Below are positions 3,003 to 63,815 of a stretch of 64,000 bases of DNA, one piece after another (within the stretch, counting starts at the first letter, position 1; every line of letters begins with the position of its first letter). Under the pieces are notes generated by a model. The model was given only the letters and a program-made list of their open reading frames with translations, ran no database searches and was not told the DNA's origin. The position numbers and the translations under genes were made by a program. This DNA comes from Bacteroidales bacterium (GTDB taxonomy: Bacteria > Bacteroidota > Bacteroidia > Bacteroidales > P3): contig WQWA01000004.1 of NCBI GenBank assembly GCA_009785505.1, positions 1 to 64,000 on the forward strand, read 5' to 3'.

Positions 3003-3046
3003 CGATTTTTTGGGGAAATAAGCAAATTATTTTGGAAATTTGGAAA

Positions 3047-3078
3047 TTTGGTTATTTCGAAAATTATTTGTAACTTTG
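3047..3078 (+). promoter_or_regulatory. Promoter of ncRNA copy A
   Basis: TTTG at 3047-3050, a 20-nt spacer, then TAACTTTG at 3071-3078: both halves of the Bacteroidota vegetative promoter. The predicted +1, five bases after the box, is 3083, exactly the first base of the RNA's closing stem. The same TTTG-N20-TAACTTTG arrangement precedes copy B. Confidence 0.8.
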
Positions 3079-3082
3079 CAAT

Positions 3083-3229
3083 GTGAAAGAAACTTGCTTA
3101 GGTTCGATCGCTGATTAGCACAGACTACGGACTTCACTGGGGACTATGACCGCCACAACTGCCAAGACGTAGAAATTGGCACAAAGGAGTGCGATACCTT
3201 TGCTAAACAAGTTTCTTTCACTTTTTTTT
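3083..3229 (+). ncRNA. Structured ncRNA, copy A, paired with a convergent BECR-like gene
   Basis: A predicted RNA of about 147 nt. The closing stem pairs 3083-3096 with 3208-3221 (14 perfect pairs), then one mismatch and four more pairs (3098-3101 with 3203-3206). Inside are three hairpins: P1 (3119-3123 with 3137-3141, one mismatch), P2 (GCCAA 3161-3165 with TTGGC 3176-3180) and P3 (CAAAGG 3182-3187 with CCTTTG 3197-3202). The P1 loop carries CTACG (3125-3129) and the P2 loop CGTAG (3168-3172), allowing a kissing contact. A run of eight T (3222-3229) follows the closing stem as a terminator. The second copy at 63153-63301 keeps every element with compensatory changes. No Rfam family was recognised by eye; a 6S-like RNA is a weaker alternative because the hairpins and loop contact do not fit a single long rod. 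Confidence 0.8.
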
Positions 3230-3619
3230 CCACAGCAATGTTTTCTTGTCAAAAAAATCTTTCCGCATAACGGTTGCCGTTTTTATTTCGTAAAATCCTT
3301 TTTGCAGTGCATAATTCATTTCTATTGCAGTAGTTTTGGGTTTGCCGTTCCAAAGCACCAACAAAAGGGAATTTCCGACTCCTTTGTAAATTCTGTTGAA
3401 ATTAATTACGACCAAATCAACAAACATCTGTGGAGTCAGTCCAACTGACGCTAACTCTGCCTCGTGTCGATTAAAAATGTGTTTGAGGTGACTTTCGCAA
3501 ACATAGATATCGGCTGTTTCTCTGCCAATTTGGTCGGCAATTGTTTTTTTCAGTTTACCGATTTTTTTGTAGTGCTTTTGGTCTTCAATCCGAGGACGAT
3601 TTGTTGGTGTTTTTTTCAT
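3218..3619 (-). CDS. Small BECR/PBECR-like predicted nuclease, copy A
   Basis: A 133-aa basic protein. Its start (MKKTPTNRP) is set by the paralogue at 63290-63691, which has exactly the same length. Conserved blocks: NRPxIEDQKHYK at the N-terminus, the central HLKHIxNRH, then FVDxVVxNFNRIYxG, and LLWKKK at the end. From memory these resemble PBECR domains (phage Barnase-EndoU-ColicinE5/D-RelE-like nucleases); activity is not shown. The final Lys codons are the complement of the ncRNA's T-tract and the stop codon lies in the ncRNA closing stem, so gene and RNA transcripts overlap at their 3' ends. Upstream sequence is shared with copy B and with dprA. Confidence 0.75.
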   Translation of the reverse strand: MKKTPTNRPRIEDQKHYKKIGKLKKTIADQIGRETADIYVCESHLKHIFNRHEAELASVGLTPQMFVDLVVINFNRIYKGVGNSLLLVLWNGKPKTTAIEMNYALQKGFYEIKTATVMRKDFFDKKTLLWKKK

Positions 3620-3671
3620 GACTTTTGTGTTTTTTATGAATAATTTTGTTACGAACGAAACCCAGTTCATG

Positions 3672-3755
3672 TATATAACGCAGAAAACTCGATTTTCGTA
3701 TAAAAAAAAACTTAAAAAATGTTAAAATGTTGATAACTTTTAGGAATTGTTAATA
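3672..3755 (-). promoter_or_regulatory. Shared upstream control region of the BECR-like gene, copy A
   Basis: In gene orientation: TTATTAACA and TTATCAACA direct repeats offset by 20 bp (about 3729-3755), an AT-rich stretch, then a core at 3672-3706 containing TATACGAAAATCGA and ending in TGCGTTATATA. The same arrangement precedes the gene at 63290-63691 and dprA at 25548. The core has rough dyad symmetry around TCGA, so it could be an operator, an unusual promoter, or both. No TAnnTTTG box was seen for this gene. Confidence 0.6.
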
Positions 3756-3782
3756 AGCTTGCCGAGATTTCAAAAAAAATCG

Positions 3783-3790
3783 TATCTTTG
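3783..3790 (+). promoter_or_regulatory. Promoter -7 box of the PdxA-like gene and murF-alr
   Basis: TATCTTTG; the ATG follows at 3812, giving a leader of about 17 nt. Confidence 0.75.
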
Positions 3791-3811
3791 TAGATTATTT
3801 TACGCAAAATC

Positions 3812-4648
3812 ATGGATACACAAAAACGAAAAATAGCGGTTGCAGTTGGAAATGCGGATAAATCGGCACTCGAAGCGGTTTATAAAAATTTACAAGACCA
3901 TCAAGTGTTGGATCAGGTTCAAATTACTTTTTTTCCGGGTGGAATGGAAGGACTTGAAGAGGCTTTAGACAAAGCATCTTCGGGATTTGATGCAATGATT
4001 GCCATGCCTTTGGAAGGCGTTGATATTGCTAAATTTTGGAGAGAGAAATGGACGGCTCTCAAAGACACTTTACAGCTTTTTGTTTGTGAAGATTTTCATT
4101 ACATCACGCTGATTACCGAAAACACAAACGACATCGGCTTTTTGCCCGATACGGAAAAGAATGTGATGCGTATAGAAAAATTTTCGGAAGCATTGAAATC
4201 CATGTTTCGTCTGCCTTTGCCGAGATTAGCTGTGATGTCAACATCGAAAAACACCGACGGGAAAGCCACAAAAGAAGACAAGGAAATTCTGATGCCGGCA
4301 GTTCAAAAAGCATTTGAAAAATTAATTCCTGTTTTCGGCACCTTCTCCGGTGAAGTTTTTTTTGCTTCGGAAAGTTTTTTGCGGTTCGACGGGTTTTGCT
4401 TTGTGAATCGTGAGCAAGCCAATGACATGCTCGCCAAATACGCCGGAATCAACATTTTATTTGAAGCCGAAGCGCCGATAGTTTTGGCAACGCCGATCAC
4501 AGATGCAACAGACGTGGAGGAAATTTTCAGAGAAACGCTTTACAAAGTGAATGATGTGTTGCGACACCAAAAAGAATATGCCGAAATGAGTAAAAATCCG
4601 TTGAAATTTGAGTTAGAACGTAAGAATAGTGAATTTCAAGCATTTTAA
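3812..4648 (+). CDS. Degenerate PdxA-like protein, probably not a dehydrogenase
   Basis: A 278-aa protein that can be aligned by eye along most of PdxA (4-hydroxythreonine-4-phosphate dehydrogenase, pyridoxal phosphate synthesis): IAVAVGNADKSALEAV against the family IGITxGDPAGIGPE, PRLAVMSTSKNTDG against PRIAVLGLNPHAGE, and the KEDKEILMPAVQKA helix. All three metal-ligand histidine sites look lost: the TTH site reads TEN, NPHAGE reads SKNTDG, and YHDQG is replaced. The protein is also shorter than PdxA (about 330 aa). It is therefore probably a repurposed paralogue. Its last 20 nt overlap the GTG start of murF-alr, implying translational coupling with cell-wall synthesis; alanine racemase needs PLP, but no regulatory link is shown. 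Confidence 0.6.
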   Translation: MDTQKRKIAVAVGNADKSALEAVYKNLQDHQVLDQVQITFFPGGMEGLEEALDKASSGFDAMIAMPLEGVDIAKFWREKWTALKDTLQLFVCEDFHYITLITENTNDIGFLPDTEKNVMRIEKFSEALKSMFRLPLPRLAVMSTSKNTDGKATKEDKEILMPAVQKAFEKLIPVFGTFSGEVFFASESFLRFDGFCFVNREQANDMLAKYAGINILFEAEAPIVLATPITDATDVEEIFRETLYKVNDVLRHQKEYAEMSKNPLKFELERKNSEFQAF

Positions 4649-7214
4649 TATCGCCGAAATTATTCAAATTTTGAAGGCCGAGCCGTTTCCGAAAATTTTT
4701 CAAGATTCGGAAATAACGGATATTTGTATTGATAGCCGAAAAATTTCGACCGTTCAAAACACATTATTTTTTGCATTGAAAACGGCAAAAAACGATGGTC
4801 ATAAATACATTCCGAATCTTCTTGAAAAGGGTGTAAAATATTTTGTGGTTGAGCGTTTGCCGGATTTCGAAATACCAAGCGATGCGGTGTTTTTAGTTGT
4901 AAAAAATTCTTTGGATGCATTGCAAAAATTAGCCATGCACCACCGTCAAAAATTCCAAATTCCCGTTATCGGAATCACAGGAAGCAATGGTAAAACGATG
5001 GTTAAAGAGTGGTTGTCGATTTTGCTTGATCCGTTTTTTAGCGTGGTTCGAAATCCGAAGAGTTACAACAGTCAAATCGGTGTCCCGCTTTCTGTTTGGA
5101 AGATAAATGAAACGCACGAAATTGGAATTTTTGAAGCCGGAATCTCCCAACCGGGCGAAATGGAGAACTTACAAAAAATTATTCAGCCAACCATCGGAAT
5201 TTTCACGATGATTGGAAGCGCTCACGATGAAGGTTTTTCTAACCGAGCAGAAAAAATTTCGGAAAAATTAAAATTGTTTACTGAAGTCGAACAGCTCGTT
5301 TATTGTGCTGACCATGCTGAAATTGAGGAGCAAATTTCAAAACGTCACTGCGAGGCACAACGTGCCGAAGCAATCCGGGCTTCGACAGGCTCAGCCTCCG
5401 CTGGATTGCTTCGCGGAGTTTATCCCGAGCGAAATCGAGGGGCTCGCAATGACGACCGCATTAAGTTTCTCACGTGGGGGAGAAAAAATCAAGAAGTAGA
5501 TTTATATATTCAGTCCGAAGAAAAAATTGGCTCCGAAACCTTGCTCACGGCGATTTATAAAGACGAAACTATTCGAATTTTAATTCCGTTTCAAGATTCA
5601 GCATCGGTTGAAAACCTCATTCATTGCTGGGCTTGTGCGTTGCTATTAGAAATTCCAAACGAGAAAATTGCGATGCACATGAAAAATCTGTCGCCACTCG
5701 AAATGCGTTTGGAATTGCAGGAAGGCATCAATCATTGTTCGATTATCAATGATAGTTACAACTCAGATTTCAATTCGCTAATGATTGCTTTAGATTTTTT
5801 ATCACAGCAAAAACAACATAAAAAACACACTGTTATTTTGTCGGATATGTTGCAAAGCGGACGCAATGAATCCGAGTTGTATCAAGACATTGCGAAACTT
5901 CTTGAGCAAAAAAAAGTCGATAGACTCATCGGAATTGGCCCTGCCCTATCCGCACAAGCCAAGCATTTTGCAATCGAAAAAGATTTTTTTCCGGATACTG
6001 CAACATTTTTGCAAAATTTTGACTTTTCATCGTTGAATCATGAAACGATTTTGCTGAAAGGTGCACGCATATTTGAATTTGAAAAAATCAACAATTTCTT
6101 GAAGCAAAAATCACACGAGACAAGGTTAGAAATCGACCTGAATGCAATGCAGCACAATCTGAATTATTTTCGTTCGAAAATCAAACCGACAACGAAAATT
6201 ATGTCGATGGTGAAGGCATTTTCGTATGGAAGCGGAAGTTTTGAAATCTCAAATTTTTTACAGTTCAATAATGTAGACTATCTCACGGTTGCTTACGCAG
6301 ATGAGGGTGTCGAACTTCGGAACTTCGGAATAACTTTGCCGATAATGGTCATGAATCCCGAAAAAATCGCCATGGAAAAAATGTTGCGATATAATTTGGA
6401 GCCTGAAATTTACAACTTTCGAACATTGGATTTTTTGATTGAAGAACTTGCCGAAAATCCGGATGTTTCACAGGTTTACATTCATTTGGAAATAGACACC
6501 GGCATGCACCGATTAGGTTTTTTAGAAAGTGATTTGCCCGAATTAATTCAGGTTTTGAAAACAGAAAAACGCATCAAAGTGCGTTCCGTTTTTTCGCATT
6601 TGGCAGGCTCGGAAGACCCGAATTTAGATGATTTTACACGTTTGCAGATTGAAAAATTCACAAAAATGAGTGAGTTTTTGATGCAAAAATTGGACTATCC
6701 GATTTTGCGACATATTCTCAATTCGGCAGGCGTTTCAAGGTTTCCCGAAGCACAGTTTGATATGGTGCGAGTTGGAGTCGGATTGTATGGCGTGGGCTTT
6801 GACCAAAACGAACAAAAATTGTTGCAAAATGTGAGTACGCTGAAATCCACAATTTCTCAAATCAAAACAATTTCGCCGAACGAAACTGTTGGTTACAATC
6901 GAAAATTCAAAGCGGAAACTATGACAAAAGTCGGCGTGGTCGCCATTGGTTATGCCGACGGATTAAGCCGAAAATTAGGAAACGGAAATGGTTCGGTTTG
7001 GGTTGGCAAACATCAAGTTCCGATTATCGGAAACGTATGTATGGACATGTGTATGATAGATTTAACAGGCGTTCCGGCACAAGAAGGCGACGAAGTAGAA
7101 GTATTCGGAAACAAAACCCCGATTCAAGAAGTCGCCCAAAAATGCGATACAATTCCTTACGAAGTTCTCACAGGGATTTCGAGGCGTGTGAAACGTGTTT
7201 ACTATCAGGAGTAG
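4629..7214 (+). CDS. murF-alr: MurF-alanine racemase fusion
   Basis: An 861-aa fusion known across Bacteroidota. The N-terminal ~490 residues are MurF, which adds D-Ala-D-Ala to the UDP-MurNAc tripeptide; the ATP loop GITGSNGKT lies near residue 115. The C-terminal ~365 residues are alanine racemase: the PLP lysine is in MSMVKAFSYG and the catalytic Tyr in VGYNRKF. Together they make D-Ala and consume its dipeptide. The start is GTG, inside the preceding gene. An extra ~37 residues (about 240-276) are encoded by a palindromic repeat at 5343-5454; without it the length would be about 824 aa, close to what I recall for the family. The 3' end overlaps the convergent helicase by 47 nt. Confidence 0.93.
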   Translation: MNFKHFNIAEIIQILKAEPFPKIFQDSEITDICIDSRKISTVQNTLFFALKTAKNDGHKYIPNLLEKGVKYFVVERLPDFEIPSDAVFLVVKNSLDALQKLAMHHRQKFQIPVIGITGSNGKTMVKEWLSILLDPFFSVVRNPKSYNSQIGVPLSVWKINETHEIGIFEAGISQPGEMENLQKIIQPTIGIFTMIGSAHDEGFSNRAEKISEKLKLFTEVEQLVYCADHAEIEEQISKRHCEAQRAEAIRASTGSASAGLLRGVYPERNRGARNDDRIKFLTWGRKNQEVDLYIQSEEKIGSETLLTAIYKDETIRILIPFQDSASVENLIHCWACALLLEIPNEKIAMHMKNLSPLEMRLELQEGINHCSIINDSYNSDFNSLMIALDFLSQQKQHKKHTVILSDMLQSGRNESELYQDIAKLLEQKKVDRLIGIGPALSAQAKHFAIEKDFFPDTATFLQNFDFSSLNHETILLKGARIFEFEKINNFLKQKSHETRLEIDLNAMQHNLNYFRSKIKPTTKIMSMVKAFSYGSGSFEISNFLQFNNVDYLTVAYADEGVELRNFGITLPIMVMNPEKIAMEKMLRYNLEPEIYNFRTLDFLIEELAENPDVSQVYIHLEIDTGMHRLGFLESDLPELIQVLKTEKRIKVRSVFSHLAGSEDPNLDDFTRLQIEKFTKMSEFLMQKLDYPILRHILNSAGVSRFPEAQFDMVRVGVGLYGVGFDQNEQKLLQNVSTLKSTISQIKTISPNETVGYNRKFKAETMTKVGVVAIGYADGLSRKLGNGNGSVWVGKHQVPIIGNVCMDMCMIDLTGVPAQEGDEVEVFGNKTPIQEVAQKCDTIPYEVLTGISRRVKRVYYQE
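5343..5454 (+). repeat. Palindromic repeat inserted in frame in murF-alr
   Basis: Imperfect inverted repeat of about 112 bp: it opens with CGTCACTGCGAGGC and closes with GGGGCTCGCAATGACG, with inner arms GAAGCAATCC and GGATTGCTTC. The frame stays open across it, giving an Arg/Ala/Glu-rich insert unlike the flanking protein. Its GC content is higher than the flanks. It is the type of mobile palindromic repeat usually seen between genes. Confidence 0.8.
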
Positions 7215-25479: not shown

Positions 25480-25543
25480 TTATCAACAAAAACGGAATTT
25501 ATCAACAATTTTTATACAAAAATCGACTTTTTTGCGTTATATA
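25480..25543 (+). promoter_or_regulatory. dprA upstream control region shared with the BECR-like genes
   Basis: Two TTATCAACA direct repeats (about 25480-25488 and 25499-25507, offset 19 bp) followed by a core at 25509-25543 containing TATACAAAAATCGA and ending in TGCGTTATATA. The core ends 4 nt before the dprA ATG. It is nearly identical to the cores at 3672-3706 and 63723-63758, in the same orientation relative to the gene. No TAnnTTTG box was seen. Confidence 0.65.
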
Positions 25544-25547
25544 GGGT

Positions 25548-26669
25548 ATGGAAACATTATACAACATCGGATTAACACTTTTACCCGGAATTGGCGATAA
25601 GCTCGGGAAAAATCTTATAGAATTCTGCGGAAGTGCTGAAGCCGTTTTTAAAGAAAAAAAACGCAACTTGGAGAAAATCCCTGACATCGGACGGATTACC
25701 GCACAAAAAATTGTGTCGCAAAACGTATTGAAACGTGCAGAAGAAGAGCTTTTATTCATCGAAAAACATCGCATTCAAACGTTTTTTTTCAAGGATAAAA
25801 ATTATCCGCAACGACTTTTGCATTGTCCGGATAGCCCGTTAATGCTCTACTTTAAAGGGCATGTAGATTTGAATGCCGAAAAAATTGTGAGTATCGTCGG
25901 TACCCGAAAATGTACGGATTACGGACGGCAAATGATAGCCGAACTACTCTCCGATTTGAAAACCGACAACGTTTTAGTGATTAGCGGGTTGGCGTATGGG
26001 ATTGATACGTTGGCACATCAAATTGCTTTAGAAAACCGGTTGGCAACTGTGGGTGTTTTAGGTCATGGTTTGGATCGAATCTATCCGCATCAAAATCGAA
26101 ATTTAGCCCAAAAAATGCTTGAAAACGGCGGTCTGTTGACTGATTTTTTATCCAAAACCAATCCCGATGCGGTAAATTTTCCTTCGAGAAACCGCATTAT
26201 TGCAGGGCTTTCCGATGCGACCATTGTTGTTGAAGCCGCACGACACGGCGGAGCACTCATCACGGCAGAAATTGCTAACAGTTACAGTCGTGATGTGTTT
26301 GCCGTTCCCGGACGACTGAACGATGAGCGTTCGGCAGGTTGTAATTTGCTCATCAAAACTAACCGAGCCGCATTGATTGAAAATGCACAAGACATTCGGT
26401 ATTTGCTCAACTGGGATTTGGAGAAGAAGCAAGGAGATTCCTCGACTTCGCTCGGAATGACGAGGCAAATTCAGAAAAAACTATTTATCGAACTCCCCGA
26501 TGATCAACGTGTTGTTTTTGACGCTCTTCAAAATAATCCCGAAGCCATTGTTGATGAGCTCTGTGATTTGCTGAAACTACCATTACCCAAGCTTTCTGCG
26601 ATTTTATTACAATTAGAAATTGCAGGAATTGTTGAGGTTTTACCGGGAAAACGTTGGCGGATTTTGTGA
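25548..26669 (+). CDS. dprA: DNA-processing protein DprA
   Basis: A 373-aa DprA/Smf, which loads RecA on incoming single-stranded DNA in natural transformation. The N-terminal helix-hairpin-helix region (LTLLPGIGDKLGKNLI) leads to the Rossmann-like core with SIVGTRKCTDYGRQM, VISGLAYGIDTLAHQIA and FPSRNRIIAGLS; a C-terminal winged helix begins near residue 305 and ends LPGKRWRIL. A short palindromic repeat (26431-26464) encodes KQGDSSTSLGMTRQ between core and winged helix, an insertion-tolerant linker. It converges on murB. Confidence 0.95.
   Translation: METLYNIGLTLLPGIGDKLGKNLIEFCGSAEAVFKEKKRNLEKIPDIGRITAQKIVSQNVLKRAEEELLFIEKHRIQTFFFKDKNYPQRLLHCPDSPLMLYFKGHVDLNAEKIVSIVGTRKCTDYGRQMIAELLSDLKTDNVLVISGLAYGIDTLAHQIALENRLATVGVLGHGLDRIYPHQNRNLAQKMLENGGLLTDFLSKTNPDAVNFPSRNRIIAGLSDATIVVEAARHGGALITAEIANSYSRDVFAVPGRLNDERSAGCNLLIKTNRAALIENAQDIRYLLNWDLEKKQGDSSTSLGMTRQIQKKLFIELPDDQRVVFDALQNNPEAIVDELCDLLKLPLPKLSAILLQLEIAGIVEVLPGKRWRIL
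26431..26464. repeat. Palindromic repeat in the dprA linker
   Basis: AGATTCCTCGACTTCGCTCG followed by GAATGACGAGG. Same class as the sequence at 42612-42650. Confidence 0.7.
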
Positions 26670-63116: not shown

Positions 63117-63148
63117 TTTGTGAAATTGGAAAAAAAATTGTAACTTTG
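63117..63148 (+). promoter_or_regulatory. Promoter of ncRNA copy B
   Basis: TTTG at 63117-63120, 20-nt spacer, TAACTTTG at 63141-63148; predicted +1 at 63153. Confidence 0.8.
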
Positions 63149-63152
63149 CAGT

Positions 63153-63301
63153 ACTGAAAGGAACTTGATTATCTACACGAAGATTAGCACAGGCGACGAT
63201 TAGAACTGTGGTCTATGAATGAAATAGTTGTCAAAGCGTCGAAGTTGGCACAAAAGAGAGTCGGCTCTTTTGCTCTGATTAAGTTCCTTTCACTTTTTTT
63301 T
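63153..63301 (+). ncRNA. Structured ncRNA, copy B
   Basis: About 149 nt. Closing stem TGAAAGGAACTT (63155-63166) with AAGTTCCTTTCA (63281-63292), then G·U, A-U, U-A, U·G and A-U pairs inward to 63171/63276. P1: CACAG 63188-63192 with CTGTG 63206-63210. P2: GTCAA 63230-63234 with TTGGC 63245-63249. P3: CAAAAGAG 63251-63258 with CTCTTTTG 63265-63272. P1 loop CGACG (63194-63198) can pair with P2 loop CGTCG (63237-63241). Eight T follow (63294-63301). Identical to copy A in the promoter -7 box, in GATTAGCACAG (63182-63192), CTATGA (63213-63218) and the distance between them, elsewhere diverged mostly in paired positions. Confidence 0.8.
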
Positions 63302-63691
63302 CCACAGCAGTTTTTTGCTTTCAAGATGTCTCTTTTCTTTTGTTAGAGCGGTTTTCACTTCGTAAAATTCTTTTTTGAGTGCCGAATTTATTTCGACAAT
63401 GGTTACCTTTGCATTTCCGTTCCAAATGACCAACTGCAAAGCATCTCCGTCTCCTTGATAAATTCGATTGAAATTGCTTACTACCGCATCAACAAACATT
63501 AACGGAGTAAACCCGAATTTTGCTAAATCGGTTTTGTGTCGGTTTAGAATGTGCTTGAGATGATTGTCGTCAATGTAGATGTCTGCCGGAATTTTGCCGA
63601 TCGCGTCAGCAATTGACTTGCGTAAGCGACCGATTCTTTTGTAATGCTTTTGATCCTCAATTTGGGGGCGGTTTGTTGTTCTCTTTTTCAT
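63290..63691 (-). CDS. Small BECR/PBECR-like predicted nuclease, copy B
   Basis: A 133-aa paralogue of the protein at 3218-3619, about 60% identical by eye. Shared: TNRPxIEDQKHYKxIG at the start, HLKHIxNRH, FVDxVVxNFNRIYxG and the final LLWKKK. The same relation to its ncRNA holds: the stop codon lies in the closing stem and the Lys codons cover the terminator T-tract. The upstream control region is shared with copy A and dprA. Divergent from lepA. Confidence 0.75.
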   Translation of the reverse strand: MKKRTTNRPQIEDQKHYKRIGRLRKSIADAIGKIPADIYIDDNHLKHILNRHKTDLAKFGFTPLMFVDAVVSNFNRIYQGDGDALQLVIWNGNAKVTIVEINSALKKEFYEVKTALTKEKRHLESKKLLWKKK

Positions 63692-63722: not shown

Positions 63723-63815
63723 TATATAAACGCAAAAAAGTCATTTTTCGTATAAAAATTTCCTTAAAAAGTGTTAAAATGTTAATAACTTTCCGAAATT
63801 GTTAATAAGCCTGCC
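63723..63815 (-). promoter_or_regulatory. Shared upstream control region of the BECR-like gene, copy B
   Basis: In gene orientation two TTATTAACA repeats offset 20 bp, then the core at 63723-63758 with TATACGAAAAATGA and a final TGCGTTTATATA; one base longer than the other two copies. Confidence 0.6.

Follow-up and report, generated by a model that had tools for sequence, protein, structure and literature searches.

PBECR3-like protein genes faced by structured RNAs in Bacteroidales as a candidate RNA-protein toxin-antitoxin cassette

RNA-controlled toxins and the PBECR3-like cassettes

Type III toxin-antitoxin systems (ToxIN, CptIN and TenpIN) combine an RNase toxin with a small, structured, pseudoknot-like RNA and are mostly chromosomal or plasmid-borne (PMC5086642). 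Their RNA, an array of short repeats, lies upstream in the toxin operon and is separated from the toxin gene by a terminator, and their toxins adopt a MazF/Kid-like fold. The AbiF-RCd22 system of Clostridioides difficile has a toxic Abi_2 protein, AbiF, with links to Cas13 ancestors, which is neutralised when its structured RNA binds it directly. This RNA lies upstream, is co-transcribed and contains two abiF motifs (Rfam accession RF03085) (PMC12373285).

PBECR domains are widespread predicted RNases of phages and mobile elements whose targets and control have merely been guessed. PBECR proteins share a His plus Ser/Thr arrangement, and solo versions are reported from phages and mobile elements with an RNA partner unmentioned in the part of the source that is available (PMC5512222). 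Titles and abstracts of the open-licence literature likewise name no RNA partner of PBECR proteins, a scope that stops short of supplementary tables (e.g. PMC8040213). PBECR1 and PBECR3 also occur within polyvalent proteins of phages and conjugative elements.

We identified two cassettes in the window (the whole 64,000-nucleotide stretch of Bacteroidales DNA that was analysed), each consisting of a PBECR3-like protein gene and a structured RNA that faces it (Table 1). These cassettes resemble type III systems in the pairing of a predicted RNase with a small structured RNA. They differ in that the RNA is convergent and has its own promoter, is a single unit without repeats, and accompanies a protein whose model is BECR-like. 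The design works like that of an RNA-protein toxin-antitoxin system, yet two type III hallmarks that were tested are absent from it. Direct binding of the protein by the RNA, which we consider probable here, would be shared with AbiF-RCd22, but the predicted toxin is PBECR3-like and the RNA has no Rfam match above chance. The polyvalent PBECR proteins contain the same predicted domain, and in one relative (L008) it ends an ArdC-metallopeptidase polyvalent protein, whereas the window genes are solo, chromosomal and accompanied by an RNA. Finally, the solved structures nearest to the protein model include RelE, HigB, BrnT and CdiA toxins. These toxins are neutralised by proteins, whereas no antitoxin or immunity open reading frame was seen within the cassette. 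No transposase was seen in the cassette either.

Table 1. Cassette components, promoter features and related sites. Positions refer to the window unless a locus or contig is named.
Feature	Position	Strand	Remarks
PBECR3-like protein gene copy 1	3218..3619	-	133 aa, stop included; open frame, ATG 3619
PBECR3-like protein gene copy 2	63290..63691	-	133 aa, stop included
Structured RNA 1	3080..3229	+	terminal stem, hairpins P2 and P4 (kissing loops), hairpin P5, T-run terminator; ends inferred
Structured RNA 2	63150..63301	+	kissing helix CGACG/CGUCG in place of CUACG/CGUAG of RNA 1
RNA 1 promoter element TAACTTTG	3071..3078	+	
RNA 2 promoter element TAACTTTG	63141..63148	+	
Protein gene 1 promoter block	3672..3702	-	common to dprA and comF-like gene
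Protein gene 2 promoter block	63724..63754	-	7 mismatches to reference motif, ungapped count
TTATYAACA box pair upstream of protein gene 1	3728..3756	-	20 nt apart
TTATYAACA box pair upstream of protein gene 2	63780..63808	-	
dprA upstream promoter block	25513..25543	+	1 mismatch; TTATYAACA pair at 25480, 25499
dprA (DNA recombination-mediator protein A)	25548..26669	+	Pfam E 1e-76
Block site, comF-like gene	L174:16708	+	
Block site, secreted lamin-tail/T9SS protein	L178:6694	+	
L007 cassette array	G096:C266, 1-1900		tandem; promoter repeated

Elsewhere in the window, positions 5305-5499 lie within an 861-residue gene (4629-7214; MurF-Alr-like by eye), and their translation (RHCEAQRAEAIRASTGSASA...) resembles an inserted repeat. 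A similar peptide, RHCELQSSEAIQDT, occurs in L174:17477-18268.

Protein family, predicted fold and key residues

The first-pass annotation had described a stand-alone 133-residue protein with two conserved motifs, and we confirmed the reading frame and both motifs in both copies (HLKHIFNRH and FVDLVVINFNRIYKG in copy 1, HLKHILNRH and FVDAVVSNFNRIYQG in copy 2). The copies are 62% identical over 133 residues (E 2e-54, tblastn within the window). The host genome (1.83 Mb, 50 contigs) encodes these two copies only, a third row at E 0.04 being taken as noise. Copy 1 has an alternative, longer frame of 150 residues from ATG 3670; the 133-residue start is preferred because a likely promoter occupies 3672-3702 on the minus strand and copy 2 begins at the equivalent of residue 1.

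PBECR3 (Pfam accession PF18812) is the only or best family for both copies, with scores of 18.3 bits (copy 1) and 21.1 bits (copy 2) that lie below the curated cut-off of 30 bits and thus leave both outside formal membership. The best-scoring relative, L008, also stays under this cut-off (25.8 bits). A profile search of 393 genomes of the order returned matches in 18, weak PBECR1 rows among them. The PBECR1 profile can be aligned with the PBECR3-like one across the His block (31 columns, probability 79, E 1.6e-5). PADLOC, NCBIfam, PHROGs and Rfam provided no usable name, the NCBIfam row scoring 16.8 bits against a cut-off of 190.

An AlphaFold2 model built from a 12-row alignment (pLDDT 85.5, pTM 0.77) contains a helix at residues 42-59 and strands at 76-79, 85-89, 95-104 and 109-119. 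A Foldseek search with this model gave no PDB match below E 0.001. Structure alignment with VIA-align placed it nearest to RNase toxins of the BECR type: the top 16 rows all hold toxins or domains of this type (CdiA toxins, BrnT, RelE, HigB and Cami1, which we take to share this fold). The best Z is 7.5 over 99 residues and all Z are below 8, hence the support is moderate. No ToxN/MazF relative appears in this listing, an absence that proves nothing. We therefore take the protein as a remote, predicted BECR-fold nuclease and not as a formal PBECR3 member. The PBECR-type nuclease proposed in the first-pass annotation survives as a remote relationship, based on the best Pfam family and the BECR-like model, but not as a family assignment, given the score below the PBECR3 cut-off.

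The earlier proposal that His and Arg residues are catalytic candidates holds for the histidines. The only residues of the HLKHIxNRH block unchanged in 18 of 18 aligned homologues are His47 and His52; Arg51 and Arg76 vary among these homologues. Position 114 is Ser or Thr in 16 of the 17 rows of this alignment that have a residue there; in L005 the candidate active-site Thr is replaced by Ala. The homologue set thus displays the feature of the PBECR clade, a helix His with a late-strand Ser/Thr. Metal-independent RNA cleavage is another defining property of RNases of this clade.

Viral contigs, phages and plasmids yielded no relatives when searched with copy 1 or copy 2, and a draw across the phylum recovered the window protein solely in its own genome (1/395). 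A PBECR1 protein query matched 106 phage records, and no plasmid or viral contig.

Facing RNAs in the genus and across Bacteroidales

Both window RNAs are about 150 nt long and have a long terminal stem and a T-run, and the terminator overlaps the last codons of the facing protein gene. With the T-run counted, the overlap of the two transcripts at the stop codon is about 9-12 nt. The TAACTTTG sequence before each RNA is presumably a promoter element of the Bacteroidetes type. A scan with sigma-70-type promoter and terminator consensus sequences, which are not of the Bacteroidetes type, yielded nothing clearly beyond chance; such a scan is expected to fail for Bacteroidetes promoters. RNA 1 and RNA 2 can be aligned with each other, and their fold z-scores are -3.63 and -2.17, respectively. 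Neither contains direct repeats; the sole tandem array near copy 1 (3031-3062) precedes RNA 1. With a gathering score, or E below 1 in a lax search, as the criterion, Rfam 15 identified only two tRNAs in the window, none in 3020-3820, and merely two miRNA rows, far under gathering scores, in 14 related loci.

A DNA search with RNA 1 in five genomes of the genus, followed by reading of the loci, showed that 10 of 10 protein copies have the RNA next to them; the protein is present in four of the five genomes. We built a covariance model (R1) from these ten RNAs. Over 61 relatives, R1 identified 11 strong places, all within the genus (the ten training RNAs and one RNA-only locus), and a further weak row on the opposite strand of RNA 1. 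R1 also finds an RNA in the facing position at L007 (47.3 bits, E 5.7e-8), which was absent from the training set and whose protein is a 30%-identical homologue from another family.

In 12 aligned RNAs, a structure that includes the kissing helix is paired in 93.9% of 424 cells, versus 84.6 +/- 0.9 after shuffling, and 16 of 36 pairs show two-sided change versus 8.6 in shuffles (0 of 500 as high). Sliding the pairing partners lowers the paired cells to 35-49%. The kissing helix, which was left out of R1, is 98.3% paired, and its second pair is UA in eight RNAs and GC in four. Wobble bias (21 GU versus 6 AC) indicates that the strand that folds is not that of the protein gene but its opposite. 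For eight RNA types, with hairpins picked by eye and L008 and L040 left out, loops pair better with the partner from the same RNA than with permuted partners (a score as high in 3 of 40,320 permutations). A blind search of single sequences for two kissing hairpins was mostly not significant against shuffles, and we therefore limit the firm kissing claim to the genus and L007. RNA and protein similarity correlate among the ten genus copies (r 0.34, p 0.022), as linkage alone would also produce.

The convergent layout recurs elsewhere in Bacteroidales. The L007 locus is an array of three cassettes, two with PBECR1 genes and one with a PBECR3-like gene; in every cassette, a promoter and an RNA-like stretch face the gene. 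PBECR3-like genes of other families have the same layout at L039, L040, L041, L042/L123, L044/L122, L121, L124 and L128. By eye, most of their RNAs offer kissing loops of different sequence (for example CUUGC/GCAAG versus CUCGC/GCGAG within one genus, and CCUGC/GCAGG in L121). At L008 (G093:C124), an RNA-like stretch faces the 3' end of the polyvalent ArdC-metallopeptidase-PBECR3 gene, with 12 nt of possible loop-loop pairing.

We identified PBECR1 (Pfam accession PF18809) in 10 of 295 genomes of the order, and in 51 of 99 genomes of one genus, at 66 places. The PBECR1 loci that were read comprise the best 30 of these 66 places plus G343:C7 (L082). Their facing RNAs form kinds separate from those of PBECR3-like genes. 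Fourteen PBECR1 RNAs of one kind are paired in 95.0% of 221 cells with two-sided change in 10 of 16 pairs (0 of 500 shuffles); their kissing helix is 94.6% paired, without two-sided change. Several unrelated-looking kinds of PBECR1 RNA occur inside this one genus. At three of its loci (L117, L118 and L120) the promoter is much closer to the stop codon, so that the RNA would extend into the coding region.

A TAnnTTTG sequence lies on the opposite strand 45-165 nt past the stop codon, an interval chosen post hoc after the first examples, at 43 of 48 PBECR loci versus 34 of 209 control genes (Fisher p 3.5e-22). TAnnTTTG together with a TTG element is found at 31 of the 48 loci and at 15 of the 209 controls. 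The misses are L043, with a short frame; L081, which is truncated and has its motif at 180 nt; L118, at 44 nt; L126, with internal stops; and L127, a fragment with RNA-like sequence present. Before this count we dropped weak or cut hits (L045, L046, L048/L077, L049/L079, L052 and L053), phage-size proteins (L075 and L078), and 13 loci whose last 40 residues are identical to those of another row. Repeat fetches of the same places were also dropped (L042, L044, L047, L051, L055, L056, L058 and others), and L008, whose domain lies within a 625-residue frame, was retained. The convergent RNA beside a free-standing protein had initially been regarded as unusual. The association itself is real, but across the Bacteroidales genomes examined small PBECR proteins usually have this layout.

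Some loci retain the RNA only. In the window's genus, L070 has lost the protein gene and its kissing pairing has decayed. In the PBECR1 genus, 5 of 29 strong R2 places (four more rows fall at E 2e-4 to 6e-3) have no neighbouring PBECR1 row: L144, L146 and L151 keep the RNA beside remains of a protein gene that is truncated or has internal deletions, and L149 and L156 show no protein remnant. Among the loci read (for PBECR1, the best 30 of 66 places), no intact protein gene is clearly without an RNA. Loci with only the RNA, and none with only the protein, would be expected if a cell can lose a toxin without harm but not its antitoxin; neutral decay could also produce RNA-only loci. Neighbouring genes, named by eye from translated starts, differ between cassettes (rplY, lepA, rbfA and a uvrD-like helicase), and genome G004 has the rplY site of copy 1 but no cassette there. 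These differences and the empty site suggest that copies are gained and lost.

Promoter sharing, alternative explanations and implications

Upstream of the protein genes we identified a promoter block (TATACGAAAATCGA..GCGTTATATA, plus two TTATYAACA boxes). With up to 3 mismatches, the block occurs in the window solely at cassette 1 and upstream of dprA, with no occurrence expected by chance. Allowing as many as 7 mismatches across the window and a further 400 kb of its genome, together about a quarter of the total, gives five occurrences: both cassettes, dprA, a comF-like gene with zinc-ribbon and phosphoribosyltransferase domains, and a gene for a secreted lamin-tail/T9SS protein. Twenty Markov simulations gave zero occurrences. 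The dprA gene of G004 also has the block, and none was seen by eye at PBECR genes of other genera.

The toxin gene is thus presumably expressed together with competence-type genes. The promoter shared with dprA and the comF-like gene hints at competence control of the toxin, and the block sites in this genus are a candidate competence regulon. DprA and ComF alone do not prove natural transformation. Transformation is able to cure genomes of mobile elements (PMC4795794), and a role of the cassette against such curing is a speculation.

We favour an explanation, with a probability of roughly 0.6, in which each unit is a toxin-antitoxin cassette whose predicted BECR-fold endoribonuclease toxin is bound and blocked by the facing folded RNA. 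The minus-strand gene would encode the small PBECR3-like toxin, and the facing gene would produce an RNA of about 150 nt with a long terminal stem, locked by the kissing of two hairpin loops. This RNA, made constitutively, would bind and block the toxin in the manner of type III systems; a shortage of RNA or a surge of toxin would free the RNase, and competence-type signals may raise the toxin. We infer that the RNA is made and abundant and that the protein cuts RNA, is toxic and is neutralised by direct RNA binding. Direct binding is suggested by the conserved tertiary fold of the RNA, by RNA kinds that track protein families, and by analogy with type III systems and AbiF-RCd22.

A type I-like mechanism, in which the RNA acts by antisense pairing with the toxin mRNA, stopping translation or triggering decay of the mRNA, and does not bind the protein, would be compatible with the overlap of 9-12 nt at the stop codon, and a read-through mRNA would contain the full complement of the RNA. 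Pairing with the start region is also slightly stronger for cognate than for non-cognate RNAs (-23.4 versus -21.5 kcal/mol, p 0.062). We nevertheless consider this mechanism improbable: the 3' overlap is terminator only, the layout is constant across PBECR families that have different RNA kinds, and the conserved internal fold, the covarying kissing helix and the one-strand wobble bias exceed what antisense pairing needs. The constant association of protein and RNA, the dispersed copies and their presence or absence among genomes would also suit a ribonucleoprotein effector in which the RNA guides or scaffolds the nuclease to targets, much like TnpB-omegaRNA or Cas systems. The 10 genus RNAs show no variable guide segment, and we therefore rate RNA-guided action low; the fold is predicted to be that of a small RNase, and RNA-only loci persist once the protein gene is broken. 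Such an effector is, in our view, very improbable.

Long terminal stems with T-runs are able to act as terminators, and R1 weakly scores the opposite strand as well (26.7 bits), as might be seen if the RNA served a housekeeping or regulatory role of its own, or were a bidirectional terminator, and were associated with the protein gene by mere linkage. This is highly unlikely in our view, since the association persists across differing neighbours, protein families and two PBECR families, and the internal covariation goes beyond the terminator stem. We give a similarly low standing to a protein that is a catalytically inactive RNA-binding BECR domain with the RNA as its regulated partner and no toxin involved. 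An inactive PBECR domain is described for MuF of phage Mu (PMC5512222) and L005 has no Ser/Thr, but His47 and His52 are invariant and Ser/Thr is retained in 16 of 17 rows.

Beyond the toxin-antitoxin reading of the single cassette, a tentative extension, which we hold to be possible but doubtful, is a new class of module in which Bacteroidales hold two or more families of BECR-fold RNase, the PBECR3-like and the PBECR1 proteins among them, in check with cognate convergent RNAs, each consisting of a terminal stem and two hairpins whose loops kiss. In this extension, the toxin of the window's genus would be wired to the dprA/comF competence promoter and act at DNA uptake, for example by punishing replacement by an empty allele. 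The promoter common to dprA and the comF-like gene makes the link between the module and DNA uptake directly testable. If small chromosomal PBECR proteins are indeed controlled by folded RNAs of their own, the cassettes would add a toxin fold and a gene layout to RNA-protein toxin-antitoxin systems. They would also add RNA families absent from Rfam 15, together with a search recipe for more: a small BECR gene with a facing promoter.
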